DNA of 64,000 nt from Letharia columbiana (taxonomy: Eukaryota > Ascomycota > Lecanoromycetes > Lecanorales > Parmeliaceae). Below the pieces are notes generated by a model. It saw only the letters and a program-made list of their open reading frames with translations. It was not told the origin of the DNA and did not search any database. Shown one piece after another: positions 20,102-54,792 of the stretch. Positions within the stretch are counted from its first letter, which is position 1, and every line of letters begins with the position of its first letter. The position numbers and the translations under genes are program-made. The stretch lies in assembly GCF_014066305.1 (NCBI RefSeq), contig NW_023501123.1, forward strand, positions 78,018 through 142,017, given 5' to 3'.

Positions 20102-20106
20102 ATTAA

Positions 20107-23367: not shown

Positions 23368-23549
23368 TATCACGATTTTAATAATCTTACTAACCTTACT
23401 TGTGTTATAGCCTAATTGGGCTTAGCGTGCTAAGGCCTTTCGGCCTTTCTATCTTACTATAAAGCCTACACTTGTAATAATCCTACATAGATAGTATTCT
23501 ATTCATACTACAATACAGAGTTACCACACACACCATTGAGTCCCTGACA
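23368..23549 (+). repeat. 3' LTR of the outer Gypsy element
   Basis: 182 bp. Its right half (CACACCATTGAGTCCCTGACA) is nearly free of RIP changes, whereas the matching end of the 5' LTR reads TTATTAAGTTCTTAATA, so the two LTRs have mutated unevenly. Confidence 0.85.
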
Positions 23550-24093
23550 ACAATGGTGGAAAGGTCCCTTGCGGTCGTCAAGAGGGGCGTCATCTGCTCA
23601 ATAGATGCCGGCAATGAGACCTCCGGTCGATGTACTTGACCGACTGTATTGATCGCATCGTGGATATATCTATCAACAAGGTTCTTGCGTTCTTTGGCCG
23701 AAGTGCGGAGTGGTGATTTCCCTTGCATACGTTCATCTGGCGTGGAGTCTCGAACTCTTCATCAACCGCCTTGAAGGTATTCTCCTCCTGGGAAGATTCG
23801 ATGAAGGGCAATGTGTCAGCTGACAGCTTGTCCAAGACCCTGAAGCTCCTAAGATCGCCCGGGACAAAGACCTGGCCAGCGTTGAGGCTGCCATGGCGTA
23901 CCTCGGTATTCGAAATCCTGGAGACTGGCCTGAGACCCCAAGGCTCTATCCGATCATCGAGCAGCACATCTTGGAGCGCAAAGGTCCGATGCGAAGAGGG
24001 GAGATCCTGGGGGCTATCCTGGCGAGTCTCGCTGCAGAGGTTGACACCCTCCGAGATGCAGTGTGCTTTTGGTCTCTGATGTTCTTCGAGCAC
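23550..24093 (-). pseudogene. N-terminal part of the gene cut by the outer LTR element
   Basis: Reading leftward: GQVFVPGDLRSFRVLDKL, ENTFKAVDEEFETPRQMN, then after a shift of frame near 23725 GKSPLRTSAKERKNLVDRY, DAINTVGQVHRPEVSLP and LTTARDLSTI, which ends at the LTR. Across the element the frame continues at 9838. The frame change suggests a 1-nt loss or an unrecognised intron. No start codon is secure; 24093 is only where the frame opens. A plus-strand frame over the same interval also looks protein-like but has an internal TGA, so strand choice is moderate. No family recognised. Confidence 0.45.
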
Positions 24094-34730: not shown

Positions 34731-35877
34731 TGAAGCTTATAATACTATTGTGTTGAAAGACTACCAAGTGTCTCCGTTCCGTTCACGCACTCGCTACCGT
34801 CCGACCGGACTGAGGAGGGGAGGAAGGAGGTAGGTTGGGCGGTTTAAAGAAGATTAGGTAAGTGCAGGGCGTGCCCGGAATTGAGAGTGAGTGAGAGTGC
34901 GAGTGAGGGGACTTTTGACGGCCTGGGCGGTTGGATGGGTGGGTGGGTGGGGGATTGTGGATGATGGGATGGGATGGGATGGGGTAGGTTAGGTTGGTAG
35001 GAGGGGCAGGGGTTAGGGGTGAGGGATGGGGGGTTGGTAGGAGGGAGGAGGGGGGAGGGTTGTGTGTTTGGAGAGTTGGAGAGGTTGGTGAGTTTAGGAT
35101 TGGTGCATGGGTGGGTATAGAGCGGGCTTTGAAATGAGGCAGGTGGGTGGGTTGGGTGGGCGAAAAAACCCCAAATCCGGGTACCGGTTCTACCACCGAC
35201 GTGAGGGCTACGGGCAGAACGATCGAGGGGGGCCAAGTCATCAAACAACAACAACAACAACAACAGTGCGAAGGATGTGGAAAAGCTTCTACTCATGCGT
35301 GGGCGAGCGTGGATGGGATCGGATCGAGCGAATCCGTTTCTCACAAACGTCGTGTTGTCGGGATGGGATGTCGGTGACGGGTTCGAAAGTGCCCACTTGT
35401 TCTGCAGTGGACAGCACCGGTGAAGCCCTAACCCTACTCTCGGGAGGTGACCCTACAGCGGAACTGTGCATGAATTGAACTGTGCATGAATTGAGCTCTG
35501 GGGACTTTTTATCACTCGGACGTGATAGGGGCAATAGGCCCGAAGCTGGAAATCGAGGTGCGTGCCGGAACACTTCCACCCAAGCGCAAACCCTTTCAGG
35601 CGGGAGATGTTGGGGCTGGCAGGTGCAGGATTTCCGGTGCCGACCTCGATAAGGTAGGTAGTTAGTGGTTGCGGGCTGGGGTGAGATGTGTAGGAGGGGC
35701 GGGCTGTGGGGTTTATATGGTGGGTAGACGTAGGTACGAGTGCCTTAGAAGGTGGAGAAAACCTACTATGCTAACCCGACTAGGGAGGGAGGGAGGGTTT
35801 GATCTGGTCTGACTGACTGACGGCAATGGATGTCTGAGCTAGCTCTGCGAGAACGACTGCTGACGGGGAAGGAGCTG
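34731..35877. other. Intergenic, low complexity, no gene seen
   Basis: G-rich plus strand with repeated GGGTGGGT, GATGGGATGGG and an (ACA)n run near 35247-35263. The apparent Pro/Ser-rich frames on the minus strand follow from this composition. Confidence 0.5.
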
Positions 35878-37015
35878 TGTTGGAATTCAGCATCTCAGCC
35901 CTATTGTGCTTGGCAACAACTATCCCCTTCCTTGAGTCCGGGTGGACCACGCTAGCAGGGGCCAGATGTAGGGATTATTATTGGTCACATCACTGCTTCT
36001 AACCGATTTCATCTTGCTTATTAAGATTTTTCTTTGGTAAACGGTGATTGGACAAATGATAATCCCTACATCTGGCCCCTGCTAGCGTGGTCCACCCGGA
36101 CTCAAGGAAGGGGATAAGTAGCAGTACTCCTCCATAGAAAAACAACAAGCCGTCATCAATTTCATCAGGTTATGAGCCCGGTTTGACGAAAATCGTCACC
36201 ACGACGGCTTCCTTCGTAAGGGATTACTAAAGGTATTCTTACGTCGTATTAATTCAGCCACAGAGTAGAGGTCCCGGTCGACGTCCGCTGCGTTAACACA
36301 AGTTGCTACTCATACCTCTACGGCTTCTCAGCGCAATTTTCACAAACTCTACGCATATCCTACGATACGATATCGACCACAACACTGTTAAAGGCAGAAG
36401 ATTAAGGGGCTTAAAGGCTTAAGCTAGGATATAGGGGAGGAAAGACGGAAGCGTATCAGACAAGGCAGTTAGGGGAGGACAGTTTAGAGGGAGGCACGAA
36501 GGAACAGACACCCTCTCGAAGCCTACGAATCAGTCACTCGATATACCCTACAACACGCCACAAAGCCCTCTACGGAGATATTCGATAAGGCTCTAGGGGA
36601 GGACTCGATAGTTTAAAAAGATGTCAGATGCCAGTGTCAGATGCCAGTGCCAGAGCCAACGATGCCCGTGCCCGATGCCAGTGCCAGAAGCCCGTACATT
36701 TCGAAGTCGAACTAGTCACTCGATACCCTACAGCAAGTCATCTCGGAAAGCCCTACTACGGTAGACACACTCACATCTAAAGCACTCTTCCCGATTTCCC
36801 TACACGAGCGAGGTTTACGGGTTTAAGGAGGCTTCAAAGCAGGATACAGGCAGTTGATTTATGGAGCTACAGCTACAGTCCCAGGGGGAAATAAATAGGT
36901 CTTCGCTGCAGGGGGAGTGTTGGAATTCAGCATCTCAGCCCTGTTATGCTTGGCAACAACTATAAGTAGCAGTACTCCTCCATAGAAAAACAACAAGCCG
37001 TCATCAATTTCATCA
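35878..37015 (+). mobile_element. TRIM-type miniature LTR retrotransposon, copy A
   Basis: LTRs at 35878-36167 (98 bp plus an inserted MITE) and 36918-37015 (98 bp), starting TGTTGGAATTC and ending TTTCATCA, around a 750-bp non-coding interior. Directly after the 5' LTR is GGTTATGAGCCC, complementary to the anticodon arm of initiator tRNA-Met, the half-tRNA primer site known from Copia/Ty5; directly before the 3' LTR is the polypurine tract GCAGGGGGAG. No gag-pol. The flanks are AGCTG (left) and GTACT (right), not a duplication; see the inversion entry. A second copy lies inverted at 41847-42737. Confidence 0.85.
35924..36113. mobile_element. MITE inserted in the 5' LTR of TRIM copy A
   Basis: 190 bp with perfect 55-bp terminal inverted repeats (CCCCTTCCTTGAGTCCGGGT... 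and its complement). Compared with the empty site in the other LTRs (AACTATAAGTAG at about 36960 and its inverse near 41910), the insertion added the element plus 2 bp (AT at both junctions). No coding capacity. The 2-bp duplication suggests mobilisation by a Tc1/mariner-like transposase, as an inference. Confidence 0.85.
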
Positions 37016-37822
37016 GTACTTAGTCTCTTTGAAATGTACCTTCCTCATATGCTCTTCAAGAAGGTCTTCTCTCGTGAAACCGTGTGATCCAATACGCCCG
37101 CACCACTCGTACTTACAATCAAGTAGCTCGTCTGGTGCAGGGGGAATGTGCACAACCATATGACTTTTAAGATCGTGAGCTCGAGAACTTATGTGGCCGC
37201 AGTTTGGGTGTAGACAGGGGTACTCGGAAGGCGATGAAGGAATTGGGGTGCTGAATAAGATGTCGTCAGCGAATGCAGAAAATTGTCAGAGATGTAGGGT
37301 GGAGAGGCAATGCTTCCCACTGAGTGCACCAACGAAGAGAGTAGTATCCTACCTGAGCTTTCGCTCCTTCACGTATTTTGAAGAGCTTACATGAGCAGTA
37401 TGAACGACCTCAATACCAGGACGGTCTGCTTTCTGTGGGCCCAGCTGGCGACTGGGAACATAGCTGTGGACTGGGTAACTTTGGACTGGATAGCTTTGGA
37501 CTGGGTAGGTCTGGACTGGATAGCTCTGTTGTGGTTGTGGGCTAGCCACTGAAGGGACTCTGGTAGCATAGCCAGAATTAGAGTTGTCCCTGGAGTGATA
37601 GCCAGCGTTGAGAGGAGGAGGCCTGAGGGTTTGATGCCCATGTGGGTATAGGTATCCACTGGTGGATTGCTGTTGAAGATAGTAATTGGGAGTACCGTAA
37701 GTGTGGGAAGAACTGGATGAGAAGCCCAAGGCTTGGCCGCAATGGCCGCCGTTAGGATCATTCTCAGTTCCGCTTGAAGGATCATTTGCACTCGTAGGGC
37801 CACTGTTCCTCGTATAGGGCAT
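37016..37822 (-). pseudogene. C2H2 zinc-finger gene, N-terminal half (severed by inversion)
   Basis: Exons 37822-37353 and 37250-37016 with a 102-bp intron. The start ATG is at 37822; upstream frame is closed by TAA. Residues 1-150 are Ser/Asn/Pro/Gln-rich and include four TYPVQ/SYPVQ-like repeats. Exon 2 carries two C2H2 fingers: CLHPNCG...HDLKSHMVVH and CKYEWCG...LLEEHMRKVH. The frame then runs ...FKETKY directly into the TRIM LTR and stops after one LTR codon. The missing remainder starts in the same frame (KYPRAS) at 42738 on the plus strand, on the far side of TRIM copy B. Together with 44073-45004 this gives an ancestral protein of about 916 aa. Probably a DNA- or RNA-binding regulator; no closer family recognised. 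Confidence 0.8.
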
Positions 37823-38595
37823 ATTGGGCAAGGGATATGCTTAGAAGCTAAAGCACGAGACGAGAAGTCGCGATATGAGCTGGAAATGTTCATTATATTA
37901 ATGAAAATGCGCCGCCAGGGCATGTATTTTCTTTCCAACGCTCTGAAGATCACATTGATAGATTGATGGTCATGGGATGGGCGGAGACATAATAATTGGA
38001 TGGAAGGGGTAGGTTGGAAGAGAGGTCAGCAGTGATATACCGACATGGCGGGGTTCTCCGAGACCATATAGTCGTTGCAGAGAATGAGGCTGTTCTTCCT
38101 GCGCCCTGCTACGGTGGCTCGGCGATCACCGTGCATGAGGCTACATAGAGCTTGCATCTCGCATCGTCCAATCGCGATGCAGCACCGTGAACTTGTTTCT
38201 TCTTCCACTTCTCGCTTTGAAGCGCGTAGGTAGCACACGATCTCTGGTGATGCGCGGATTCTGAGATGAAGAGAGTGGCGGAGACATTTGACCGCGGTGC
38301 TGCGCACGGCAAGGCTGCGCTCATCCTCGCCAATCGTTGTATTGGGAATGTAATATCCGCGATGCTTGCACGACCTCGCATCTAGACGATACGATTGGTC
38401 AATAACATCTGATAAACACGAACGCATAAATCTTCTCCTCGTGCTGAAAGGACTTGTTCTGTTAAAACGATATGTATGATGGTCATGAAGGATGGTTGAA
38501 AGAGAGCAGGAAGTATAGCAGGTCAGCCCTACGGCAATGCCGCCCAAGGCTCTGCAGCCGACTTTTTGTATCGAAGGCAAGCAGTAGCAACAGCC
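37823..38595. other. Promoter side of the severed zinc-finger gene; no other gene seen
   Basis: Minus-strand frames over 38026-38580 lack an ATG start and any recognisable domain. It should contain the promoter of the zinc-finger half, so a truncated transcript may still be made. Confidence 0.4.
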
Positions 38596-39906
38596 TCATC
38601 CCTCATTTTCACTACCCCCCTCCTTCTCTCCCCTCCAGCTCCGGCGTATCTCCAAAACAAACCTTCGCCATAACCCCCGGATACCGATCCCCACTCGTCT
38701 CACAACCCTCCACCGCCTCCCTATCTCCCTCGCCTGCCCCTCACTCAACACCACCCGCAAACTCCCCAAATTCTCCTCAAGATACTTCGCCTTCTTCGTC
38801 CCCGGAATCGGAATCACATCCGGCCCCTGCTCCATCAACCACGCCAGCGTTAATTGCCCCGTCGTACAACCTTTCATCTTCGCGATGGCGGAAAGCTTGT
38901 CAACGAGCTCGAGATTCTTGGGGAAATTCTCCGCCGAGAACCGAGGCATGTTGCGCCTCCAATCGCCCGGCCCGAAGTCCTCGGCGCTTTTGTACTGGCC
39001 TGTAAGCACCCCCCGGCCGAGCGGGCTGTAGGCTACGGTCGCTACGCCCAGCTCGCGACACGTGGCGAGCAGGTTTGTGCCGGAGGCGTTTTCGATGTCG
39101 AGGGTGAAGGGGGAGTATTCGATTTGGACGGCGTGGATGGGGTGGATGGTCATGGCGCGGCGGAGGGTGGTGGAGGAGCATTCCGAAAGGCCGAGGTAGC
39201 GCACTTTGCCCGAGTGGACGGCGGAGGCCATGGTAGAGACGATGGTTTCGACGGGGACTTTGCCGTCGAAACGGTGGCTGGAGGGTTGTCAGTGCTGGAT
39301 GGGAAAAGGCTTGGATTGGGGGAAGAGGGAGATACGAACCAGTACCAGAGGTCAACATGGTCGGTTTGCAGTCTTTCCAGACTCCCATCGATGGCTTTTC
39401 GTATGTACTCCGGCTCATTGGAGAAAATGCGTGTACCGTCTGCTAAGCCCTTGACTGCGAATTTGGTTGCCAGAAATACCTTATCCCTCTCTCAGCATCA
39501 CATACTCTCAAGATTTAGAACGAAGGTAGAGCATACCTGATCACGCTTTCCAGTCCTTTTGAACCACTTCCCAATCAGCTCTTCGTTGTCCCCATAGCCC
39601 TACACCAGATCAGCTTACGACTCTCGAACATAGCAAACATTCAATCCCGATTCATACCTCAGCAGTATCCCAGAACGTACAGCCCATCTCAAACACCTTA
39701 TCCAGAAACGCTAACCGCTCTTCCTCGTCTCCAGCATCGCCGTAGAGCGTAGCTACTCATGCATCATATCATTAGCTCGCCCATTCTCATATCGGAGAAA
39801 TCGGACACGGTAATTCCCTACAACTCAGCCCCATAGCCCCATACCCCAACGCACTAACCCACGGCCCATCCTTGCCCAATTGGCGCGTGGGAAGTTGTGC
39901 AGCCAT
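38596..39906 (-). CDS. Aldo/keto reductase with a C-terminal frameshift
   Basis: NADPH-dependent oxidoreductase of the aldo/keto reductase superfamily (AKR13/yakc-like). Five exons: 39906-39822, 39752-39658, 39599-39537, 39479-39340 and 39277-38596. Seen: QLGKDGPWVSALGYGAMGLS, the catalytic Asp and Tyr in FWDTAEGYGDNEE, the Lys in LATKF, the His in WYCHRFD, then GKVRYLGLSE, AYSPLGRGVLTG and IPIPGTKK. The family's usual ending, CETSGDRYPGVMAK...GDTPEL, is present but one frame off: a single base is missing near 38720, so the actual protein ends in an Arg-rich tail at 38596 instead of at 38612. The active site is untouched, so it may retain activity; a sequencing error is possible. It lies inside the inverted segment. 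Confidence 0.8.
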
Positions 39907-40173
39907 TGCGGTGCGCTGCCGTAGTTATTGTTAAACGCTGATCGATCGGCAGCACGTTAGAGTTAGATTGGATAGGATTAAGTGCGTAAGTAAGTACATA
40001 TAAGATGGACTTGTTTTGAAAGAAAGAAACATTCCGTCTGTTGTAGTTAAGTAACGGTGCACCCGTTCGGCGTTAAGCTTAAGTACCCCAAACAAATGAT
40101 TCCTTACAAATCCATAAGGTACCCCGTCTTACCAGTACAGGTATTGATCTGTAAGTAAGCCATAGCCTGAGGT

Positions 40174-41073
40174 GATATTGGCGTGTGCAGAAAACGTTGG
40201 AATACTTGGCACTGAGAAAATCACACACACCACCAAAAGTAGTACTGAATAGATGAATCTTCTCCCATATCGCATTCTACCACCTTCCTCATCATATTTG
40301 AAGCTCCTGTATATCTCGCTTAGCCAATTCCTGTTGTTTCGAAATGCCCCTCGCAACGATCGATAGAAGGGGCTTACCTCCGCCTATTCGGTCCAGAATC
40401 GTTCGTTTGTTACTCCTTTGCGAGGTCCGATATCTGCCTCCCTACTCACCAGATGTCAATCCCATCGAGCTCTCTTTCAGCGTCTTGAAGGCACGGGTTC
40501 GAAGATACTTTTACGAGGTATGGCCTCAGTTCCAAGGGAACTTTGTTGACTTCTTACGATATGCCGTGATGAGGAGTCGGTGCGATCTCTTTCCGAGGGA
40601 GCATTTCAAGCATAGTGCTATGGGAGGCTATATCTTTGAGGCGGACATGAGGGAGTCAAATAGAGCTCTTAATGAGTGCGATATTCAGATAGATTTTGAA
40701 GACTAAACTACATTTGCTGCTGCTGCTACTGCCCCAGAGTCATTAAGGCCTTCGCCTGTCGCCATTAAGGCTTAAATACCTTCAAGTCTGCCTTAAAGCC
40801 TCTGACTAAAGCATCAGGAACCCCCAATTGTAAAGCAACACGATACATAAGGGGGGGACCCCTGACTGCGTCGATTGGGAGGCATTTTGAAACACTAAGG
40901 CAAGATATTAAGGATCGGCTAAGCGAGATATATAGGAGCTTCAAATATGATGAGGAAGGTGGTAGAATGCGATATGAGAGAAGATTCATCTATTCAGTAC
41001 TACTTTTGGTGGTGTGTGTGTGATTTTCTCAGTGCCAAGTATTCCAACGTTTTCTGCACACGCTAATATTGCA
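40174..41073 (+). mobile_element. Tc1/mariner-like (DDE) transposon relic with long inverted repeats
   Basis: The segment 40174-40330 recurs in inverted form at about 40905-41073 (shared GCGTGTGCAGAAAACG, AAAATCACACAC and CACCTTCCTCATCATATTTG blocks), giving terminal inverted repeats of about 160 bp around a transposase fragment. Internal sequence is too short for a complete transposase, so this is a deletion derivative. Exact ends and target duplication were not resolved. Confidence 0.65.
40344..40706 (+). pseudogene. Transposase C-terminal fragment (DDE superfamily endonuclease)
   Basis: 120 codons ending at a TAA. It contains VRYLPPYSPDVNPIELSF, the hallmark around the second catalytic acidic residue and Asn-Pro-Ile-Glu block of Tc1/mariner/IS630-type transposases, followed by a typical C terminus (DFLRYAVMRSRCD). 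The N-terminal helix-turn-helix and the first catalytic Asp are absent, so it cannot be active. Confidence 0.75.
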
Positions 41074-41846
41074 CCGATTCGGTAATTTTTCCCGGCCTTA
41101 ACCCTCGAAAAAGTTACCAACTCATACCCCAAAACACGGATTCGTTACCGAGTGATACCCTAAATTCTGGCGGCGGCGTATGGAAATGTAACGCCAGGGT
41201 ACGAGTTCGCAAACCATATCGAGCGAAGACAGTAATGACAGCACGTTGATTCGGTAAATTGCAGGCAGAGGCAGAATAGCCAGTTGCAACCAACCCTAAT
41301 GACTGACGATTGGATATCGAGCCGAACCTCATCGCTCTCCTCTCCATTCTCGCGTGCATCCCGGAATCCATACCATCCGCGCGGACGGCGCTACAAGCCT
41401 ACATATCTTGGCAGCAGCGGTACAATTGGTGCGCTCCATACACACAAAGTAGGTGGCACGGCTTGTGTAGCTCTGTCCAGACGAGCCGCGTCAGTGCGTA
41501 CGTATTACCCATAGACGCATCTACTAATCTCACAGATGTCCAGAAAATCGGAAGAACAGAAAGACCTACCGTATCGTTGTGCGATTATGGGATAATGACT
41601 ACTCTTTCACCTGATTCCTTTCTTACCTTTCCTCCCTTCTCCGTCTCTTCATCTCCCCACCCAGCCCATGTTGCATAAAACCTCGAATAAACAATCGACA
41701 CCACACCAGCACATACCTAGCGCTAATCACTTCATTAACGGACTTCGTACTCTCATAACAACACAGATAGTCCCTTCCTCGCTTCATATACATACAAACA
41801 TACATACATACATACATACATACATCACACAGCCACGCACTCAGCT
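41074..41846. other. Intergenic, no gene seen; contains a CATA microsatellite
   Basis: No supported coding region. A (CATA)n repeat at about 41787-41824 lies next to TRIM copy B. The last five bases (CAGCT) are one half of an exchanged target duplication. Confidence 0.5.
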
Positions 41847-42737
41847 TGATGAAATTGATGACGGCTTATTGTTTTTCTATGGAGGAGTACTGCTACTTAT
41901 AGTCTATGCCAAGCATATCAGGGCTGAGTTGCTGAATTCCAACACTCCCCCTGCAGCGAAGACCTATTTGCTCCCCCCTGGGACTGTAGCTGTAGCTCCA
42001 TAAATCAATTGCCTGTGTCCTGCTTTAAAGCCTCCTTAAACCCGTAAACCTCGCTCGTGTAGGGAAACCGGGAAGAGTGCTTTGGATGTGAGTGTGCCTA
42101 CCGTAGTAGGGCTTTCCGAGATGACTTGCTGTAGGGTATATCGAGTGACTGATTCGTAGGCTTCGAGAGGGTGTCTGTTCCTTCGTGTCTCTAAACTGTC
42201 CTCTCCTAGAGCCTTGTCGAATGCCTTCGTAGAGGACTTTGTGGCGTGTTGTAGGGTATATCGAGTGACTAATTCGTAAGCTTCGAGATGTACGGGCTTC
42301 TGGCACTGGCATCGGGCACAGGCGTCGTTGGCTCTGGCACTGGCATCTGACACTGGCATCTGACATCTTTCTAACTATCGAGTCCTCCCCTAGCTGCCTT
42401 GTCTGGTGCGCTTCCACTTTCCTCCTCTAAATTCTAGCCCTAAGCCCCCCAATCTTCTGCCTTTAACAGTGCTGTGGTCGATATCGTATCGTAGGATCTG
42501 TGAGGTATGGAATTGCGCTGAAAAAGCCGTAGAGGTAATAAGTAGCAACTTGTGTTAACGCAGCGGACGTCGACCGGGACCTCTATGGCTGAATTGTACG
42601 ACGTAAGAATACCTTTAGTAATCCCTTACGAAGGAAGCCGTCGTGGTGACGAGTTTCGTCAAACCGGGCTCATAACCTGATGAAATTGATGACGGCTTGT
42701 TGTTTTTTCTATGTGGCTGAGTTGCTGAATTCCAACA
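41847..42737 (-). mobile_element. TRIM-type miniature LTR retrotransposon, copy B (inverted relative to copy A)
   Basis: Reverse-oriented copy: LTRs at 41847-41944 (98 bp) and 42678-42737 (60 bp, lacking about 38 internal bp), primer-binding site and polypurine tract as in copy A. The interior is related but differs by small indels and a shorter repeat block (GCCAGTGCCAG-type units near 42300-42360). Flanked by CAGCT on the left and AGTAC on the right. Confidence 0.85.
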
Positions 42738-43856
42738 AGTACCCTAGAGCGAGTAGACGGGGCAATGGACAAGAAAGTAGAAGAAAGAGCCCGAGACGTG
42801 GATCTAAGGTAGCAGCGGCTGCGACACACTGTTCGGTCGTTTCAGAAAATCAAAGCATGCTTGTAAAGATCAAACCAGAAAGCACAAGATCTAGGGCAAG
42901 AGAGGAGAGTGTGCTCCCGTCAGGCAACCCTCAGGCTCCAGGACTGTCAGCGGAAGCTGCAGCACGAATTGCGAATTCGCAACCCCGGAAAATCTGTGAA
43001 AACCCGCCAGATCAAGAGACTGCTGGGTTGAAGGTCTCTATTCCGGATCCAGATTCGGTCGTGCCGCAAGCTCTGGACGCTAACAACGTCGGACCTATCG
43101 ATAAGATGGCTAATGCATCGGACGATGTAGAAATGGAGTCGCATGAAGCAAACGAGTTGATTTCTTCCTCGGATGATAAAAGTGTGCATCAGCGACTGAA
43201 AGACGGTATCCCCGATGACCCTGGATCTATCGCTGAGTGCGAACATAGGCATTCAACAGGAACGGTTCTCGACGGAAACGAGGGTTTGATAGCTTCAAAG
43301 TTTCACCACTCGATCAACGCCAAGCTGGCACTCATAGAATCTCAGGTGCTTGAGGCTTTGTCAGCGGGCGAAGCAGGCCAGTACCGCGCTTCGATCAAGA
43401 TTCAGTGGAACGTCTTGGGTTTCATGAATGACCAATTCCGTGAGGATGACTTTCCAAATTCAGCTTTGAGTCCCGTTGTTACAATAAGTGGGTCTGCACA
43501 GCACGCTCAAGCGACGACCTGCTCAGATTATATACAACAAAACTGGCCTGCACATGGTTCGAAAGTTCTGGATGCCCTACAGGCTGCTTTGGATAGCCCT
43601 TCCCACACGTCACAGTCTAAAATTTGTGATCGTATTGATGACGGAAATATTTCTAGAGACGGTGCACCCTCCAGTCATGCTGAGCTTGAGTTCCAAGTCA
43701 CTCGCGGTTCTATGTCTCTCTACATCACATCCGGAAATCCAGACATCGTTGTGGACGTTGTCCAGCAGCTGGCAAGGATGGGGGCCGCACTCCGAACGGC
43801 CGGACTTGGTCGAATTGAATATTGTGATTCAAAGCTGGAGGCAGTCCTGAGACCTA
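42738..43856 (+). pseudogene. C2H2 zinc-finger gene, middle part (outside the inversion)
   Basis: Open frame beginning at the TRIM junction with KYPRASRRGNGQ, directly continuing the frame lost at 37016. The protein part is hydrophilic (Ser/Asp/Glu-rich) up to about 43260, then contains a helical region (SINAKLALIESQVLEALSAGE) and a more folded stretch LEFQVTRGSMSLYITSGNPDIV...LGRIEYCDSKLEAV. It runs into the solitary terminal repeat at 43857, where it would terminate 4 codons later. It has no own start; any expression would begin inside the TRIM element. Confidence 0.75.
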
Positions 43857-44072
43857 TGATATGGCTCTGACAGAGACGAAATCGAATGAAGAGCCATTGA
43901 CAGGTGCAAAACAGGTGGCTATATAGCTCGTACTGGACACCTGTCCCCAACCCCTTGCCGGGGTACCAACAGGGGTACCAACAAGGGTACCAACAGGGCC
44001 AACGGCTGATCAAACAGCCATTAACGCTATGGCCTCATAATGGATCTACTAACCCACAGTCCCACTGTTGCG
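43857..44072 (-). repeat. Solitary A-repeat of the DIRS-like element inserted in the zinc-finger gene
   Basis: 216 bp, the reverse complement of 50019-50235 at high identity, including the threefold TTGGTACCC-type minisatellite and the block CCAGTACGAGCTATATAGCC. No B-repeat adjoins it. No target duplication is seen, as expected for tyrosine-recombinase elements. Removing exactly 216 bp restores a continuous frame (…RP-KKDKDYLAVG…) between both sides. Confidence 0.8.
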
Positions 44073-45004
44073 AAAAGGATAAGGATTACCTTGCCGTCGG
44101 CGTTTCAATGCTAAGGATGTTCTACGCAAAAGCCGGACACCGCCAGGATCAGCAATACCTAACCTCTGCGAAGCTCCAATGGCATCGAGGCTCCATGCTT
44201 TTTGAGCCATGCGCTGGCGTCAGTTCGAATCGCTGCAAGTGCGACCGTTTACAGCAGGTATACCACGACTCGTACAAAATAATCGGGCATAGAATCCCAC
44301 ACGGCAAGCTCGAAGCCAACGGTTGTGTGGTATTTGGTCAAGCCCATCACCCACTCAAGCTCCCCCAAAGCGTCGCCTGGAGACAAAACACGGTCCATAT
44401 GTTACCCAACACTTCCATTCAGGATGGGAAAACCACCAAGAAGACTTCAACAGAAGATGATGGCTCACTATCACCGTCTCCTCCAACATCGGTCTCCCCT
44501 GAACGTGAAGAAGTCAATGGAAATGCAATCTGGAGCCCACAACGACGGCCGTCGCCACTGAGTTTCACTGACCATCTGGTGCAAGAAAAAGCGATTGCAT
44601 CAGAGAGAAGACGTAAGACTCCACACATGCAGGCGTCGAGTTTCGACATGTGCAAGGGACCCAACGACAGCAATGACCAAATATCGTTGTCTGACGACTG
44701 TGCAACATGTCCCCTGGAATATCAGTCGATACTCAGATATGATAATCTGTCGAACGGACAATATTCGGGATGCAGAGAGACTATCCACGCTCCCAAAGCT
44801 GAAGACGCTCCACCACATGCCCCAAAGACTCGAAGTCACAAAGCGAAGATCAAAAACTATAGCCATCGTGGTGGCTGTTCATGTACGACTTGTTCCACAG
44901 GATCTTTTGAGCCACCAGAAAGCATGGAGCTTGTCAACACCGTCAAGGGCATTCGAAGGAATTCAACGAATATAGCAAAAATGCCAAACAGACAGCTAGT
45001 GTGA
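44073..45004 (+). pseudogene. C2H2 zinc-finger gene, C-terminal part
   Basis: Continues the frame of 42738-43856 after the solitary repeat: DKDYLAVGVSMLRMFYAKAG, LTSAKLQWHRGSMLFEPCAG, then IPHGKLEANGCVVFGQAHH and a long Ser/Pro/Arg-rich tail with HRGGCSCTTCSTGSFEPPES near the end; stop at 45004. The summed length of all four coding pieces (470+235+1119-5+932 nt, counting the duplicated 5 bp once) is divisible by three, about 917 codons with the stop, which supports that they were one gene. Function of this C-terminal region unknown. Confidence 0.7.
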
Positions 45005-45215
45005 TCTTGCAGTGTCTTTCAGAGCACCCATCACGAGTCGGATCTTCTCAGCAAGCTTTTAAAAAATCAAAACGAGGGACTTCTGTTTGGAACTTCCGCT
45101 CGAAATGTCTATCAAGGGACGGTGGCGGCAGCACAGTGCTTATTGATTAGCCATACTGTACATTGAAGACGCCAAATTCACGTCAGCCTCAAACCAAACA
45201 TCTCAATCTCCAATC

Positions 45216-45725
45216 TCATTCGAGCCCAAGCAGCGCCAATCGCGCCGTAACATGCACCTCCGTCGGATCCCTAACCGGATCATAATACCTCCTACACTCC
45301 CTCTCCCAGCCTTGCAACAAACCCACCCAACGCCTCCCACACTCCTCCCTCTGCCTCCCCAAATCCTCTTCCTCCCTCTGCCTCCCAGTCCGGAAATACG
45401 CCCGCCAAAAATTACACTCGATCTCCGTGCGCAAATGCTCCGCTTCCGCTTCCATCGCCAGCAACGATTCGCGGATCTCTCCGCGCAGCGCTGCCGGGAT
45501 GGGGTCTCCGGCGAGCGCGAGGGCTTTTGCCAGATAGGAGAGAGGGTGCAGGAAAGGATCCATAAGCCATGGCGTTAGGGAGTTGTTGGCCGATAAGGTG
45601 CGCAGATGCCACAGGTCTGATTGGCGGCGGCAGAGGAGGTGGAAGAGGCTTGAGGAGATGCTGGCGAAGGATCTTTGCGGTGGTGGGGGTACGTTGAGAG
45701 ATCTGATTGATAGTTGGTGGTTCAT
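45216..45725 (-). CDS. Hypothetical protein, mostly helical
   Basis: Single exon, 169 aa from the ATG at 45723-45725; the frame extends further upstream but without another ATG. It begins MNHQLSIRSLNVPPPPQRS, followed by Leu-rich helices (SSLFHLLCRRQSDLWHLR, LHPLSYLAKALALAGD) and a charged Arg/Glu-rich helix near residue 110-150 (RTGRQREEEDLGRQREE). No signal peptide or membrane segment. I do not recognise the family. It converges with the broken zinc-finger gene. Confidence 0.55.
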   Translation of the reverse strand: MNHQLSIRSLNVPPPPQRSFASISSSLFHLLCRRQSDLWHLRTLSANNSLTPWLMDPFLHPLSYLAKALALAGDPIPAALRGEIRESLLAMEAEAEHLRTEIECNFWRAYFRTGRQREEEDLGRQREECGRRWVGLLQGWERECRRYYDPVRDPTEVHVTARLALLGLE

Positions 45726-46751
45726 GTTGTTGGAACGATGGTCGCGATTTTCATTAGTGTAAAAGCTGAGTGTGGCCAAGGAAGAGAGACTGACTGCACA
45801 TTTTATAGATCTTAGACGCAGTTAGAGTTGCATGAGGGGACCATTGCTCTTTGTCTTCATTGCAAACCAGGCTCTGGGTTCTCACATGTTCCACCGTGTC
45901 TGAACGTTGTGCGCATTTTCTAAAGAGTTCCGGGACTGGGCAAACAAAGGTCGCAGTGACTGACACAGAACCAGAGACCTGCTTTCTCCACGCATGTCGG
46001 ACACACTTGAAATATCTAGAATCGTCATAACAAGGTCCCTCTGCCAATGCAATGTCAAAGACGCTGATCTCCCCTTGAAAAGTCACGTTTCTTTGTAGCA
46101 TCGGGTGATGCAAGCCCCACTGCCGTTAGTGAAGGCTTTGGGTGACCAGCGAGAAGTTAGGCAGACTGGTGGCATTGAGGATTTGCCACCGGAGACTACA
46201 GCAGAATTGGGTAGTTATCTGCCGAATGCCTAGTCTTCTTCGTCCCATGATGAACTCCAGCTCCACTCCACGGTCTAGTTCTACAGGAGAAGCTAGGATC
46301 TTTTTTGCCGACCGTAGCACTCCGGGTTTGCAACAGCGCCTAAAGCGAGCCGCAATCTCTCCTTTCGCTTCTACGGGTCCTTCTCTAGCACCCAAATCTT
46401 GTTGATATCTGCGCTATAGCTTAGGCGCAGGATAATAGGCGCGACTGCTATTTGCTCCTGTGCAATTTCTTTCCTTTTCAAAGGCGCGCCTGCTGCGCTC
46501 GACCCTCTTCCCTCTTCAAAGTCTTCTGGGCTCACGTCTCTTTCGATGGGGCCATTAGCATGCATTAGCCAGGCTCTGAGCGTTTCCTTACTGATACAAT
46601 GCAGCTGTGCTCTACCTCAACAAAGTAACGTTAGATCCTCGTTTCGTGGAGAAACATGGTTCTGACTTCTTAAGCAGCCCCGAACGATATCACGAAAAGC
46701 AACGACTACACAATCCAGCACTGCAGTCTACTCGCCCCACAGGTCCAAAAC
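45726..46751. other. Intergenic; possible unrecognised 5' exon of the protease
   Basis: No secure gene. A plus-strand frame at about 46620-46740 (VTLDPRFVEKHGSDFLSS...) precedes the metalloprotease in another frame and might be an exon or decayed sequence. A minus-strand ATG frame at 46371-46565 (64 aa, MHANGPIERDVSPEDFEE) has no further support. Confidence 0.4.
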
Positions 46752-47625
46752 GTGCTGGAAAGTCTCTACGATGTTCTACCACTGGCTATTCGGGAAACCC
46801 ATTACGGGGTAACAAGTGCACCATATCAAGCGTTTTTCAAAAATTCGTATTACGAGACGGTTGTCCATGGGATATTGAGCAGGGTCACGATCGGAGTGCC
46901 ACTTCGTCTGGATTTCGGCAAAGAATTGCTAGTGCCGAGTCTCGTCTGCGCATTGAAACCAGACACAGTGATCATTCACAAAGCAGGCCAAGAATTTGAC
47001 ATCTATGATATTTGCAAAGGAAATCCGACTTGGGCGCTCATGTACTACCCGAAAACACCGAACATCTTCATCTGCCCTCTTTTCTTCCTGATGCCGACAC
47101 TGCCAGCCGTAGGGAATTGTCCAACTGTCAACGAGGCTACGAACCAATTCGAAGGAAACTTTACTGCTTTTTGGCAGTCGCAGATGTACATGCTGCTGCA
47201 TGAGATTGCTCATTTCTACATTGGCGTCACGGTTGAGGATAGCGTGGACGAAACCATGGATTGGAACTATGCGTTTTCGCTCTCGCCGATGAATGCGACT
47301 TCCAATGCGCTGAATTATGTTCTCTTTGTGGCCAGTAAGTGCATTTTCACCTGGAATGGTCGGTCTTATAAACGCTTAGTATCACCTCGTCGCTGACGCT
47401 TACCATTTAGGCGTCGACAAAGGATGCAGAGACTATCCACAGGCAGATCAGCCGCAGTCTTTCGAAGGTCGGAAGCTTGGAACGATGCTAGATCTGCTAA
47501 ATACGTCTTCCCCAGACATCGTGGAAAGCCAGAGACTTGACTCTGTACGGGGTAGAGTGTCGCCGTATCATACCGATGCTACGAACCTAACGTTTGCGCC
47601 GAAGAATGAGACTTCCTTTAGATGA
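46752..47625 (+). CDS. M35-like (deuterolysin/aspzincin-type) metalloprotease, 5' end unresolved
   Basis: Two exons, 46752-47334 and 47411-47625, with a 76-bp phase-1 intron, about 265 aa. The zinc site HEIAH lies at residues 150-154 in MYMLLHEIAHFYIG, followed by DWNYAF and a NALNYVLFVAS segment, the arrangement of fungal M35-like peptidases in which a downstream Asp replaces the third zinc ligand. Upstream are the family blocks APYQAFFKNSYYE and NIFICPLFF...CPTVNEATNQF. The C terminus VDKGCRDYP is reached only by splicing. No ATG or signal peptide is found in frame; 46752 is a GTG just after a plausible acceptor (CCACAG), so at least one 5' exon is missing or decayed. Probably secreted if intact. 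Confidence 0.65.
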
Positions 47626-48543
47626 GAAACTCGTGGAATACGCGTGTGCGGTCCAAAGCATCTTAGGTTCGCGACACTTCTGCCCTGAGTATCGATGTAG
47701 CTGATGCAGATGCCGTCGCCTCTGTATATGTACATGTCATGGCCGGAGCGGAAAGAGAAAGGAGAGAGGAAATGCGCCCCATCGTAGGGTGGTATAGTAT
47801 GAATTGTGAGCCATTGTAAGGTCACAGCATGTCCTGTGACAAAAAAAAGAGCGCTTACTCCGCTTGGTAGAGGGAACAGACTCCGAAAACATCTAGTTTG
47901 CTCAAATCTGATGTATTGGCCACGCGCTCCGCTCTGATTGCTCATCCTCCCGACAATATTTGACGGGAACCACTTCATGAGTTCTGAGCTATTAATGATT
48001 TCTTTCTCACATCACCATACAGTTATGGTCAGCATTAGCTAGATCCTGGATCTCAGAGTAACGGTAAAAGCAATGCGCCAAGCTGGGAGGCGAAAAGGAG
48101 TCACGTGATACAATCCTGAAACTTGTGACCGAGAATATCCGTACGTCGTACCTCAATCTTGCTCCAACTCTTGACAAAACAAATGCGTCTCCCTTTCAAA
48201 AGCTCACTCCTGTAAGTTCACAAACTGTCAGTGTTGTATTGCCTTGTTGATATGCGACATGAACAAAGGAAGCCACAATAGCCTTTGTCCTCTCATTGTC
48301 GAGTATCGCACCTTCCGATATCAACCCCTCGTACCTGAGCCCTTGGAAATCCTAGCACCAGTCTTCGGCCCCCAACCTCATCTCGAGTCCTTGTTCAAGA
48401 CGTCATTACGTGCTTGGTGTTTTATCAAAGGATTCACCGCATCCTCAACGTCACATCGCGTTGCTTTTATCGCGCCACGCCAAAAAATCGCGCTCGCCAT
48501 TTCACAACACGATTAACCGTTCTTTAAGGACAGATCCTCCATT
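47626..48543. other. Intergenic, no gene seen
   Basis: Contains the promoter and probable 5' untranslated region of the gene at 48544; a plus-strand frame at 48256-48516 has no recognisable content. Confidence 0.45.
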
Positions 48544-49833
48544 ATGCAGCCTGGAGAGTGCACCGCCTCCATCGGCAGCTCGGAAGACCCTACAACAACG
48601 CAAATCATCACGGATAACGCCGACTGGCTAGAAAAGATTACCCTTGACTCATCCGATTACATCCTTCCGTCAGCCGAGGTCAATTTCGAGCCCCCCGACG
48701 ACACCGATTCAGCAGACGAAGATGCCGCTCTAGTCGCACACTTGTGGGACAGAGACCACGCCTCTGACCTTGAGGCGTACGAATGGAATTCCGACGACCT
48801 CGTGAGCGAGGCCTGCTCAGATGATGGAAACGCTTCTGAGGAGGAGCTCCCAAGGTTGGCCCGTAAGGACGAGTTTGAGCAGGGTATACGGCGAGAGGGG
48901 ACTTGGACGAGGGAGTACCGCGAGCGGTGGGAGGAGCATCATCTTTTCTATAAGTCGAAGATACAGTCACGGTTGGAGACCTCCGGGGATGAAAAGGGGA
49001 ATTATGAGGGGCATTCCTGTGTCTCGGAGAGTGCTTGGAGCGCTGCGGGGGAGCAGGGTTGGAGTACCCCTGCGACTTCTGGTGGTGGGGATTGGACTAC
49101 GAATTGGACAGCAGGGGATGGCTGGACCGAATGGAAGAAGGAAGATCCAGAACCTTGGACCCAACCCGGCACTCCATCACCGCAAGATACGGATATCGTT
49201 GATGCGGACGGATCTGCAAGAACAAATGAGGATTCTGGTGAGCTAAATTCCTGGAAACAATCATCGGGGTTGGGACACCTTAGTAAGAGGACTGCTTACA
49301 AGGAATCACGCAGCACTCCAACCGTCTCCCACTTCTCCAAGTCTACCCATACCTTACCCACCACCCCTTCATCCTTGTACGATGGACCCACTATTGCAAA
49401 CCTCGACGACAGCACCGCCCTTCCTCCTCCTACCTCCTCCCAACTCGCCAAAACAGCCCTTCGAAACCCAAAGCGGACCGCAAGATTCGGAGACCCAGAG
49501 CCTGTGAATGCAAAAGCAACCAGCTGCTCCGACCTCGCACTCGACGCAAAGATACTGGACAACTTTCTCGACACTTGCATTGAGAAGACACAAGCTCTGC
49601 TCGCAGATGCGAAAAAAGTCCTCACATTACAGGCGCGAGTCGAGGAGATCTCGGAGCCTGTAGAAAATGAAGGACGGTCTTCTCACGTGCAGAAGGCCGC
49701 GCCAGGTGGCGAAGTGAGAGCACCGGGAGCGCTGTTGGAGGAGACTGTCATCACTCCCGCAGAGATCGTCAGGGTCGAAGGCTGGTGGAAGGTAAAGGGC
49801 TGCGACACGTGGACGAAAGCTCCTGGCCCGTGA
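48544..49833 (+). CDS. Hypothetical acidic, Trp-rich protein
   Basis: Single exon, 429 aa, from the ATG at 48544. The first 110 residues are strongly acidic (Asp/Glu clusters such as DDTDSADEDAA). A short basic stretch TWTREYRERWEEHHLFYKSK follows. Residues about 155-205 are unusually rich in Trp within Gly/Ser/Thr context (GWSTP, GGGDWTTNWTAGDGWTEW). Then a Ser/Thr/Pro-rich linker, a helix LALDAKILDNFLDTCIEKTQALLADAKKV, and the ending WWKVKGCDTWTKAPGP. No signal peptide or membrane segment. I do not recognise the family. Its 3' end lies 186 bp from the DIRS-like element. Confidence 0.65.
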   Translation: MQPGECTASIGSSEDPTTTQIITDNADWLEKITLDSSDYILPSAEVNFEPPDDTDSADEDAALVAHLWDRDHASDLEAYEWNSDDLVSEACSDDGNASEEELPRLARKDEFEQGIRREGTWTREYRERWEEHHLFYKSKIQSRLETSGDEKGNYEGHSCVSESAWSAAGEQGWSTPATSGGGDWTTNWTAGDGWTEWKKEDPEPWTQPGTPSPQDTDIVDADGSARTNEDSGELNSWKQSSGLGHLSKRTAYKESRSTPTVSHFSKSTHTLPTTPSSLYDGPTIANLDDSTALPPPTSSQLAKTALRNPKRTARFGDPEPVNAKATSCSDLALDAKILDNFLDTCIEKTQALLADAKKVLTLQARVEEISEPVENEGRSSHVQKAAPGGEVRAPGALLEETVITPAEIVRVEGWWKVKGCDTWTKAPGP

Positions 49834-50018
49834 TAAGCAAAATGACGCAACCGTTCCCGTGCTGTAGTCCCTTGCGCTGAGAAGTAACGCCTAATATATT
49901 TGCCATCATAGTGCAGCGCGCAGGGCATTATTGGTTGTCTCGCATGCTAGCTGCGTATTTCCTATATACGCATTTTAGTTTCCACGATGATGAGGTGAAA
50001 TTCCTTACTTCGGATACT

Positions 50019-50235
50019 CGCAACAGTGGGACTGTGAGTTAGTGGGTCCATTATGAGGCCATAGCGTTGGTGGCTGTTTGATCAACCGTTCGTGTTGGTA
50101 CCCTTGTTGGTACCCCTGTTGGTACCCCGGCAAGGGGTTGGGGACAGATGTCCAGTACGAGCTATATAGCCACCTGTTTTACACCTGTTAACGGCTCTTC
50201 ATTCGATTTCGTCTCTTTTAGAGCTATATTATTTT
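50019..50235 (+). repeat. A1 terminal repeat of the DIRS-like element
   Basis: 217 bp, nearly normal base composition; contains three tandem TTGGTACCC units. Matches 54358-54575 (RIP-mutated) and, inverted, 43857-44072. Confidence 0.8.
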
Positions 50236-53200
50236 TCTTCTTCTTTTATAATTAAGTCTATATAAATTAATCTTTATTTAACTATTATAAGTACTATTTA
50301 ACTACTATAAATATACTCTATACTCTTATATACTTCGTAATAGCCTTCGCCGCTATTATTAGATTTAAAAAAGCGATTAAATATATTACCCTCGCCTTTA
50401 AAATTATTAAAAAGATCTTTAACGTAGTTAATAATATTAATAAGACTCTTAAGACTAAAAAGGCTTTCAAGACTATTAAGGCTAAAATATCTTCTCTTCG
50501 CGAGAATATTCTTATATATAATACGTTATCGAATATTATAAGCTCGGATTAGGTGAATAAAACGCCTTTATCTACTATTAAAGTAGATCTTTAAGAATTA
50601 ATAGCCTAGCTATTTAAGGTCTAAGAGAAGCGAAATAATTACTATTCTTATAAGGGTAGAATTTATAAGTTACGCCGTTATTACCGCCGCTATAATCGTA
50701 ATTATTATTATTATTACTCGAATATATTAAATTTAGATTTATTTAATTTTAAATCGAATTAGAAGAAAAGAAGAGAGATTTTCTTTCGTTATATAAAAGA
50801 TAAGAAGTTCTTTTTTAGTATTATTAAAAGATTTCGAAGTATAAATATTAAATACTTTAAATAAATCTTCTTTAAGATCTTTAAGATTAAAAATTTCGCT
50901 AAGTTAGCCTATATATATACTATCTTAACTAAAAAGAATAAGAATATTAATAGCTATAATTATATAATATACTACTTTTATATATACTTAATAACTATTA
51001 GCCGCTTTATATATATTAGCGTAAAGAAAGACTTAAATAAGATTTTATATATATATACTATTCGCCTATTACGATTATCTATTATCTATAGATTTAACTT
51101 TATTCTCGCTTATTATCTCGCCTTTATTACTATATATATTTAAAATAACTAAAATAATCTTAAGATCTAGAAAGCGAATAATTAGAGTTATAAAAATCTT
51201 CTTATATTTAAAGAAACTTATATAAGTAATAATAAGCTAAATACCGCTACGCCTAGCCTTAATAAGCCCGTTACCGTCGAAGAAAGTAGAATTTATAAGA
51301 ATTTTAATAGAGGTAACTATTTTCGCGAGCGCTATATTTATTTATATATTTATATAATCTATTAATAAAATCATTTAATAGATAAGTACTCTAAGGCCTT
51401 AAACTTAGCTATAAATAACTTTAATTATTTACTATTAGATAATCGTATTATTAAGATAGAATAACTTCTAGAATACTCGTAGATATCTTAGTCGCTATAA
51501 TATATATCTAAGAGGTTCTTATACGCGCTATATAACCTATTAAACTTAAATTTATCTTACTAGAAATTGTTAATAATTAATAATTAGTCTAAATAATTAA
51601 ACAATTATTCGGATCTAATATTTATTAAGACTATTTCGATTATTCTTCGAAAGAGCGTTAAGATAGATTTTCGAGGCTATATTTTAGTCTATCGTAATTA
51701 AAATTATTTATTAATATATTAAGTACTCTAAATACTATTAATAAATCTTTAAAAATAGCTTTAATAATATCGTCTAATCGAGGTTAATTCTTAGAATAAG
51801 CTCTACTACGTCTATTCGCTACTTAATTTAATATCGAAATATAATAGAGATTAAAGATAAATTTATAATCTCTTATTTCTATATAACTACTTAGTTAATA
51901 ATAATATTTAAGCGAAGTAAAGCGTATTAAAATATATTATATATAATAATATAGTAGTAGTATTATTATAGAAAGACTTAAAGATTTAATTTATTAAAAG
52001 AGATCTTAAAGACGTCTTTAGATATATACTCGTCGCTATATCGAACTAATAACTATTTAGTTTTAATTATAATAAACGCTATTAAAAAGAACGATATCTA
52101 TTATTTAAATTATATATATTATTATTTCTATTTAATCTCTTTATAAAGACTCTTATTTAGATCTTAATCGCGATTCTTCTATAAAAAATAATATTCTATT
52201 ATCTAGACGATTTCTTTATAATTCTTTTATTAAGTAATAATATAATTATATATATCTAATAGTTCGATTAGCTATATAGCGAATTAAGTCTTTAAATTAA
52301 TTATATAAAGAATATTATAAGTTTTATAGTCGATTTTCTAAAAATCAAATTCGATAGTATTTATATATAGACGAGACTCCCCTTAAATAAACTAACTAAA
52401 ACGAGAACTACGATTAAAAACCTTTTAAAAAGAATAATTATCTTATATTAGAAGCTCGAGTTAATAATTAGCTTTCTCTCTTTTACTATTAAAGTCGTAA
52501 TTTTAAAAAGAGTATTCTTAAGGCGATTTTTTAATATCCTTTAAAGACTTATAATAATTATACGAATTATAGATAATATAAGAGTAGACTTATTATAGTA
52601 AAATACCTTTTTAAAATATTAGAATAATATCGCCTTAATACGCTATGTCGATAGTCGAGTTATATAATATATATAAATTAATACGTCTAGAAAATTTGAT
52701 ATAAGAGGCTATATTCTCGACTATCTCGATTATATTTAATCGATTTAGCTTAAAGACGTTTTTAGTATTAAAATAGCTATATATTATTATTTTAAAGATA
52801 TATAATTTAAAGAAATAAAGGTCGTTTATTACGCGATAAAGCTATAATTATATTAGTTATAAGAATCTCGCTTAATTCTTTACTACGATAACGTTATATA
52901 CGTTAATAAATTATATAAATTCTCTATATAAAGGCTAGCTATAGCTTTATTACGCGATATAGCTATACTAATAACTACTTACGATATTATAATAGTATTT
53001 ACTTAAATATCTATAAAGATTAATTAGCTGATTAATAATCTATTATATTTTTAATATCGAAAAATTGCTAACGTATATCTATAGCTAAAAGATCTTATAT
53101 CTCCGCTGAAATAGAATAAGATTTATTAGAATATTAGTATAATTAGATTATACTATCTTAAGAGACCATACGACTTCTTTAATAAGGGCTTACTATTAAA

Positions 53201-54200
53201 ATTAGAAAGATATATATAATTTTAATAAGATTTTATACGATCTATTACGCATTTATAGAAATTTAATCTCTCTTTTTAATAACTATAAATACTTTTATAA
53301 GCTAAATTATTAATCTAAGCACTCGCCGCGTTAAGTTAAAGTCTATAAAGATATATCTTATCGATCTTAGATTAGTCTATATAGATATAGAATTTAATAA
53401 TCTCTTAATATTTTATTATTCTTAATTATAACGTATTATTATAGATAGTCGATATTTTTATAACGAAGTTAATATAAAGAAAAGACGTCTAATTACTAAG
53501 AATCTATTACTTTAAATTCTTTCTTATTTTAATAAGTTAATCTATACTAGAGCGACTCTATATATCTTCTTTTATCTCGTCTTTATAATATTTCTATATA
53601 TAAATAAGTTTACTTATAATAAGCGAGATCTTTAATAAAAGAACTTCGGCGAATAGTTTCTTATACGTCGCTTAATAAGGCTATTTAATAATTATCTAGA
53701 ACTTATACTTTTAGCGTTTAAAACGAACTTATTTCGCTATAGAATTATACTTATAATAGTTATATTAAGCGATAATATATATATAGTTAAAGTCTTATAT
53801 TATCTCTTTAGATAGAAAGCTTTATTTAATATATCGCTATTTTAATTAAAGAGCTTCTTCTTTACTAGAGAGACCGTTATTAATAATCTCCGCGAGGTAT
53901 TAACGTTACTTAGTATTAAGAGCTATTATTTAGATTATTTTTTTTATAGAGAGATTATAATATTAGTATATAATATCGATCTTAGTAATAATAAGATTTA
54001 ATTATTAAGCCGTTAAAAGTTAGATTTCTATCGTCTATATATCGTTACTTATCTAGCTTATATACTTAAAGTATTATTATAATATTAATATTTTTTAGTC
54101 TATTTACGCTAGTACTATCGATCTCTACTATTTATTATAATAAATATCGTTAAAAGTCTTTCTTAAGACCTTTACTCTTTTTAAACGATATTTTAGATTT
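50236..54200 (+). pseudogene. DIRS-like gag, reverse transcriptase-RNase H and probable recombinase, RIP-degraded
   Basis: Plus-strand remnants with Gln and Trp codons turned into stops. At about 51297-51400: KNFNRGN-Y-FRER-Y-IYLYIYIIY, the spacing of a gag Cys/His segment in which Cys codons became Tyr. From 52002 in one frame: DLKDVFRYILVAIS, FSFNYN, LFLFNLF, the catalytic YLDDFF at 52200-52217, then FLKIKFDSIYI, LPLNKL and FLRRFFNIL. In the same frame at 52872 onward: LILYYDNVIYVNKLY, ITTYDIIIVFT and INQLINNLLYF, the order of DIRS RNase H (CDN, then a WI...N..AD.LSRF block). Downstream (53100-54150) I infer the tyrosine recombinase from position only. Not functional. Confidence 0.7.
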
Positions 54201-54357
54201 TAAGAGTTTTCTAGCGCTAAGAGATCTTTTTTAAATCATTTATATATCTAAAAAAGGTCTTAGTTATCTTAGTATTAAATATATCTAATTATCTATTTAT
54301 ATATCTACTTATATATATATTATTTTATATATAATCTTACTATTTACGAGTATTAAT
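54201..54357 (+). repeat. B1 repeat of the DIRS-like element
   Basis: 157 bp, direct copy of 54636-54792 after allowing C-to-T and G-to-A changes (GAGTTTTCTAGCGCT start, GAGYAYTAAY end). Ends exactly where A2 begins. Confidence 0.7.
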
Positions 54358-54575
54358 CGTAATAGTAGAATTATAGATTAATAGATCTATTATAAAGTTA
54401 TAGCGTTAATAGCTATTTAATTAGCCGTTCGCTATTAATACCCTTATTAATACTTCTATTAATACTCCGATAAGGGGTTAAGGATAGATATCCAGTACGA
54501 GCTATATAGCTATCTATTTTACATCTATTAACGGCTCTTCATTCGATTTCATCTCTTTTAGAGCTATATTATTTT
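54358..54575 (+). repeat. A2 repeat of the DIRS-like element
   Basis: RIP-mutated copy of A1; keeps CCAGTACGAGCTATATAGC and GGCTCTTCATTCGATTTC. Confidence 0.8.
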
Positions 54576-54635
54576 TCTCTCACCCACTCACACCTATATA
54601 TAGCCTTATTTCACTCCAGGTTATATCGCTCAGAT

Positions 54636-54792
54636 ATAGGAGTTTTCTAGCGCTGGAAGGCCTTTTTTAAACTATTTGTATGTCTAAAAAGGTCTTAGCT
54701 GTCCTAGTATTGGATATGTCCAATTACCTATCTATATATCTACTTGTGCATGCGTTGTTTTGTGTATGGCCTCACTGTTTGCGAGCACTAAC
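54636..54792 (+). repeat. B2 terminal repeat of the DIRS-like element
   Basis: Near-normal base composition; partner of B1. About 60 bp between A2 and B2 are not clearly matched elsewhere. Confidence 0.7.

Follow-up and report, generated by a model that had tools for sequence, protein, structure and literature searches.

Exchange between copies of a transposable element has been traced in the inversion 2z3 of Drosophila buzzatii, where inverted copies of Galileo carry exchanged target duplications, uninverted chromosomes hold single target sites and chimeric copies serve as the proof (PMC2775673; statements taken from this and the other cited reports refer to the available parts of their texts). 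In the fungus Mycosphaerella fijiensis, mismatched target sites at the ends of long terminal repeat (LTR) elements have been read as a sign of ectopic recombination for 125 elements (PMC3562529). In filamentous ascomycetes intrachromosomal inversions are held to lie behind mesosynteny, and the exact mechanism that gives rise to this pattern was called unknown in 2012 (PMC3516569). Here we describe a locus of the lichen fungus Letharia columbiana at which two oppositely oriented copies, A and B, of a small LTR element resembling a terminal-repeat retrotransposon in miniature (TRIM) enclose a segment of 4.8 kb and have exchanged one half of each other's target duplication, most probably as the result of a crossover that inverted the segment. 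The locus lies in a window of 64,000 nucleotides, the whole stretch that was analysed (RefSeq assembly GCF_014066305.1, contig NW_023501123.1, positions 78,018 to 142,017 of the forward strand). We refer to the contig with the window as C88 and to a second contig with the same locus as C75, and positions are those of the window unless prefixed by a contig.

The locus resembles that of Galileo 2z3 in three ways: two inverted copies of one element mark the breakpoints, the target duplications are exchanged, and the uninverted state carries each target site only once. It differs in that Galileo is a DNA transposon of a fly for which chimerism was shown, whereas the present element is a small LTR element of a fungus, the segment measures 4.8 kb, chimerism of the copies is not shown, and both arrangements occur in one assembly (PMC2775673). 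With M. fijiensis it shares a fungal host and differing flanks of LTR elements that are read as ectopic recombination; there, however, the partners are unpaired and no unrearranged allele is given, whereas here both partners, the inversion and a copy with empty sites are in hand (PMC3562529). Like the inversions invoked for mesosynteny, this one lies within a chromosome of a filamentous ascomycete, the differences being the LTR element at both breakpoints and the lichen fungus as host (PMC3516569). That LTR elements recombine ectopically in fungi is already known and is not new here (PMC3562529). The available parts of papers on TRIMs of Venturia (PMC4646964), on elements of Cochliobolus (PMC4112212) and on an Antarctic lichen (PMC11386357) contained nothing decisive for the locus, and the listings that we obtained from open-access literature showed no account of such an inversion made by a TRIM or known from any lichen fungus.

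A and B belong to the same family and stand in opposite orientation, one at each breakpoint (Table 1). Both end in TG..CA, their full LTRs measure 98 bp and, when a hairpin in the 5' LTR of A is omitted, 737 of 827 aligned bases are identical (89%), with internal repeats that are arranged differently. The initial annotation had read the flanks as AGCTG/GTACT for A and CAGCT/AGTAC for B and had interpreted them as exchanged target duplications, a reading that we can confirm to the base. In element orientation, A stands between AGCTG and GTACT and B between GTACT and AGCTG, which is a perfect swap of flanks. The letter N is absent from the window and from all loci compared.

To place this swap against the rest of the family, it should be noted that one LTR query gave 38 matches in the genome, some of which are halves of one LTR, and that the counts are lower bounds. 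Flanks were read for 27 copies or LTRs, leaving out five weak LTR matches and places without a listed LTR match. An identical 5-bp duplication of their own was found in 12 of the 27, two of which represent a single locus that is present on both contig C143 and contig C74; at least four of the other 15 are LTRs of truncated or split elements, with one flank that is internal. A and B form the sole perfect two-sided swap among 105 pairs, where 0.0001 would be expected at equal base frequencies, and a chance match of the flanks is thereby ruled out. A further two pairs agree on a single side, presumably by chance in the case of the pair on C33 and C2. Ordinary insertion followed by decay of the duplications is likewise ruled out by the exact match of both halves to the other element.

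The segment with both its flanks has one other high-identity place in the genome, namely on C75. Weaker partial matches are found for the segment on C70 and C60 and for the left flank on contigs that include C53 and C81, and a repeat in the right flank occurs in many copies. Along the minus strand of C75, the alignment follows the left flank to 35877, then runs from 41846 back to 37020 and then from 42738 onward, with A and B missing from both junctions. The left one, GGGGAAGGAGCTGAGTGCGTGG, is a perfect empty site with a single AGCTG, whereas at the right junction C75 has AGTGC against AGTAC, a match in four of the five bases, plus one extra zinc-finger repeat of about 100 bp. It had been predicted that the ancestral order would show the segment reversed, ideally between single empty sites; the order and the AGCTG site are as predicted, and the other site is one base off. 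Most of 40076-41210 is without alignment to C75.

The direction of the change can be read from a zinc-finger gene, the pieces of which lie on opposite strands in C88. In C75 an unbroken frame of 1088 amino acids spans the right junction, with its start about 10 codons before it, and a search with this frame gave 75 homologues (among 7998 candidates scored), the best protein match being that of Letharia lupina (96% identity over 95% of the query). Twenty-six of the 75 homologues, including one of Imshaugia aleurites, match both the minus-strand finger (37016-37594) and the plus-strand body (start at 42659-43277), and the finger comes first in every one of these 26; the finger match ends exactly at 37016 in 20 of them and the body match begins by 42800 in 17. 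On C75, 29 of the 75, including all 26, align in one piece over the junction. The remaining 49 are neutral on the order, as 40 match the body only and 9 match neither piece, and the L. lupina homologue (P0001), the start of which lies beyond the junction on its downstream side, is uninformative on the order there. Because homologues join finger and body, the element-free, unflipped order is the older one, and on this sequence evidence the present arrangement of C88 is derived and splits the predicted zinc-finger gene.

An inversion made by recombination, as originally proposed, is therefore supported by the reversed, element-free segment of C75 and by homologues that date the unflipped order as the older, and no element-free relative with the present order was seen in the sequences examined. 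In place of the description of the event as caught in the act, we prefer to say that one assembly contains both arrangements.

We make no claim that the whole C75 gene works, as its extra finger repeat is out of frame with the preceding finger (matches end at C75:215922 and resume at C75:215890). In C88, a 217-bp LTR-like repeat at 43857-44073 replaces 1189 bp of the C75 gene body, with flanks that are unmatched as cut by the alignment, and is possibly a deletion scar between repeats. In a local Pfam library search, the C75 body of the split gene was assigned to no family; a local Pfam search of three homologues gave a sub-threshold C2H2 match in one, and precomputed annotation places PF28131.1 on all 75 homologue rows.

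We propose that, in one nuclear lineage of Letharia, two oppositely oriented copies of a small non-autonomous LTR retrotransposon inserted at sites about 4.8 kb from each other. Each insertion would have created a 5-bp target duplication, AGCTG for the first and AGTAC for the second, and the second would have hit the zinc-finger gene. A crossover between the copies would then have flipped the intervening segment, so that the two duplications traded one half each and the 5' and 3' parts of the gene came apart, and the element-free unflipped state would have persisted on a second haplotype, represented by C75. Insertion followed by crossover fits the order and the flanks at every junction seen, apart from the right site, where one base and a repeat differ. 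We consider an ectopic crossover between the elements to be the best explanation of the locus, with a probability of roughly 0.86; that it was a homologous crossover within the elements is what we infer from the swapped flanks, the order and empty sites of C75 and the order in the homologues, and the assembly is presumably correct at this locus.

Several observations weigh against this account. The right empty site is inexact, the order of C88 is that of assembled sequence, and the LTRs carry variants that are awkward for an exchange in the internal region, after which LTRs sharing a duplication should match. The 5' LTR of A and the inner LTR of B, which share one, differ at 8 of 98 positions, all of them polymorphic in 21 other LTR rows, and the two LTRs within A differ at 2 of 98. 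LTRs paired by target duplication have 9 mismatches altogether and LTRs paired as they now stand have 3, in a count that excludes the deletion and a single additional base in the outer LTR of B; a crossover would also give 3 if it lay within the final 57 bp of the 3' LTRs or within the initial 15 bp of the 5' LTRs. The control pairs give a mixed picture, with 1 difference in 98 positions each on C12 and C86 and 12 in 98, six of them at the same sites, for a pair on C1 that shares TAGCA, so that LTR variants are a weak guide to the exchange point. Either the exchange lay near an LTR end, or conversion blurred the signal, or the elements never recombined; the variants lean towards an exchange at the LTR ends. 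Had the elements never recombined, the ends of two copies might have attacked the two sites crosswise and flipped the segment by aberrant integration without homologous recombination, and the better match between the present LTRs of A than between LTRs paired by duplication is what this would produce. The four ends of two cDNAs would have to swap between two sites in one event, however, and a hybrid-insertion variant, described for DNA transposons (PMC2775673), predicts identical copies, at odds with the 89% identity of A and B; we attach almost no weight to this route.

The flip could also exist on paper only, if one or two unflipped, element-bearing haplotypes had been misjoined through the repeated elements. 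A misjoin through inverted repeats yields the same pattern of flanks, and unmerged near-duplicates are present in an assembly whose whole-thallus sample is reported to contain three genotypes (PMC10512270). We nevertheless regard such an error as quite unlikely, given that Nanopore long reads are among the published data (PMC10512270), that elements of only about 1 kb, 89% identical over 827 bases and with internal repeats in different arrangements, would have had to mislead the assembly, and that the whole unit measures about 7 kb, with no N in the sequences compared.

How C88 and C75 relate to each other is a separate matter. Insertions in either aside, they are homologous between window 3497, at the end of C75, and window 64000, at the end of C88, and the stretches of 2.7-3.2 kb tested just beyond the overlap, window 300-3490 and C75:181001-183700, are each single copy; such an end-to-end overlap is the pattern expected of unmerged haplotypes. 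Near-duplicate stretches also lie on the contig pairs C143/C74, C150/C8 and C53/C81, three more loci that occur twice in the assembly (97.6-99.4% identity in long matches, 93.9% in one 742-base piece), and judging from these pairs the assembly seems to retain unmerged haplotypes. McKenzie et al. 2020 sequenced a whole thallus of L. columbiana with Nanopore long reads, and this sample is reported to be triploid-like, with both mating types in its reads; the L. columbiana metagenome produced for PMC10512270 itself was haploid (PMC10512270). We favour the view that the two contigs are alleles and that the assembly, made from a thallus of several genotypes, is partly collapsed. Nine chaperonin-family genes, the identities of which are our own reading, occur once each, and this tells against that view in that the assembly is not doubled throughout; beside these single-copy genes we found one match in a 2570-amino-acid frame, taken as that of a FAB1-like kinase, and one degenerate match. 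Doubling of the whole genome in the assembly is accordingly unsupported, and partly unmerged haplotypes fit better. The same single-copy genes would suit paralogous segmental duplicates in one nucleus, with a real inversion in one duplicate, a relationship compatible with the proposed crossover; we think it unlikely in view of homology that stops at two contig ends with single-copy sequence in the tested stretches just outside, the similar redundancy of other contig pairs and the genotypes reported for the sample (PMC10512270).

With gaps uncounted, C88 and C75 differ at 791 of 37,847 positions overall, 60 of 3,641 in the segment and 30 of 7,063 in the right flank. Dating of the event by this divergence was dropped because the mismatch is patchy. 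From the inversion breakpoint onward, 42738-50017 shows a mismatch of 0.42% versus 2.09% overall; other low tracts exist, and the start at the breakpoint may be a coincidence. Two blocks of C88 are absent from C75: one of 13.7 kb and 23% GC at 9835-23550, which looks like a mutated repeat island, and one of 4.8 kb and 24% GC at 50018-54788, with two minus-strand matches (92% and 77%) to the 217-bp LTR-like repeat of the split gene.

The element shares with TRIMs its short direct terminal repeats of 98 bp, TG..CA ends, 5-bp duplications and a length below 1 kb without the insert, and no frame of 150 amino acids or more, the size range covered, lies wholly within A or B; one frame begins in the outer LTR of B and extends out into the gene. 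As candidates for a primer-binding site and a polypurine tract, GGTTATGAGCCC follows the 5' LTR and GCAGGGGGAG precedes the 3' LTR, and the former may resemble the anticodon arm of initiator tRNA-Met. A tRNA scan of the window, run in the bacterial setting, found none. Classical TRIMs have an internal part of a few hundred bp; that of the present element, at about 730-750 bp, is not very short and exceeds this length, and we therefore call it TRIM-like. Two observations concern other members of the family. An LTR at C8:711961-712249 has the same kind of hairpin at the same LTR point as A, so that two copies of the family carry it. At C1:5166-15618, two LTRs in the same orientation stand 10 kb apart with TAGCA on both outer flanks; they appear to belong to a single TRIM-like element that was divided by a nested insertion of about 9.5 kb.

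Table 1. Features of the locus with the probable inversion in the window (contig C88)
Feature	Position	Strand	Remarks
AGCTG	35873..35877	+	Left half of the first insertion's target duplication; single AGCTG at C75:220141-220145
Copy A, TRIM-like LTR element, 1138 bp	35878..37015	+	Includes the 192-bp hairpin in the 5' LTR
Hairpin resembling a miniature inverted-repeat transposable element, at TA in the 5' LTR of A	35923..36114	.	TA at 35921-35922 and 36115-36116; boundaries set by eye, inverted pair found
3' (inner) LTR of A, 98 bp	36918..37015	+
GTACT, reverse complement of AGTAC	37016..37020	+	Swapped half of the second insertion's target duplication
5' part of the zinc-finger gene, cut from the 3' part	37016..37831	-	Homologue matches 37016-37594; open reading frame 37349-37831
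Inverted segment with the 5' piece of the zinc-finger gene, an aldo/keto reductase gene and a DNA-transposon-like remnant	37021..41841	.	Reversed in C75 (aligned pieces C75:215920 to 220145)
Aldo/keto reductase, C-terminal exon	38596..39231	-	PF00248, E 3e-37
CAGCT, reverse complement of AGCTG	41842..41846	+	Swapped half of the first target duplication
Copy B, TRIM-like LTR element, 891 bp	41847..42737	-
3' (inner) LTR of B, 98 bp	41847..41944	-
5' (outer) LTR of B, 60 bp after internal deletion	42678..42737	-	38 bp shorter than the others
AGTAC	42738..42742	+	Right half of the second insertion's target duplication; AGTGC at C75:215816-215820
3' part of the split zinc-finger gene	42743..45004	+	Unbroken 1088-amino-acid frame across the C75 junction; homologues

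The inverted segment contains an aldo/keto reductase gene, most of the domain of which is kept in both C88 and C75. In C75 the C-terminus of the reductase is changed by a solo LTR, the profile being covered to position 280 instead of 286 of 291. This solo LTR belongs to the family of A and B, lies at C75:217667-217764 at the 3' end of the gene, has unmatched flanks and is absent at that point of C88. At 40175-41069, mostly unaligned to C75, we observed by eye an element with inverted ends of about 155 bp and the remnant of a Tc1/mariner-like protein.

It is tempting to ask whether the inversion keeps complementary damage apart in different nuclei, the flipped arrangement with its split zinc-finger gene and the unflipped one with a reductase C-terminus altered by the solo LTR, so that the nuclei would be interdependent. 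We give this idea very little credence; if it were true, hindered recombination across the flipped segment, together with the reliance of each nucleus on the other, could help to maintain triploid-like Letharia thalli.

As an instance of a known process, the locus is well supported and unusually complete. One assembly shows, at base resolution, both the flipped arrangement and the unflipped one with its empty sites, together with a direction of change based on homologues. It thereby offers a concrete example of an inversion that can be tested by polymerase chain reaction, in which a retroelement of about 1 kb would have served as the substrate; the gene that it splits has an uninterrupted body on the other haplotype.

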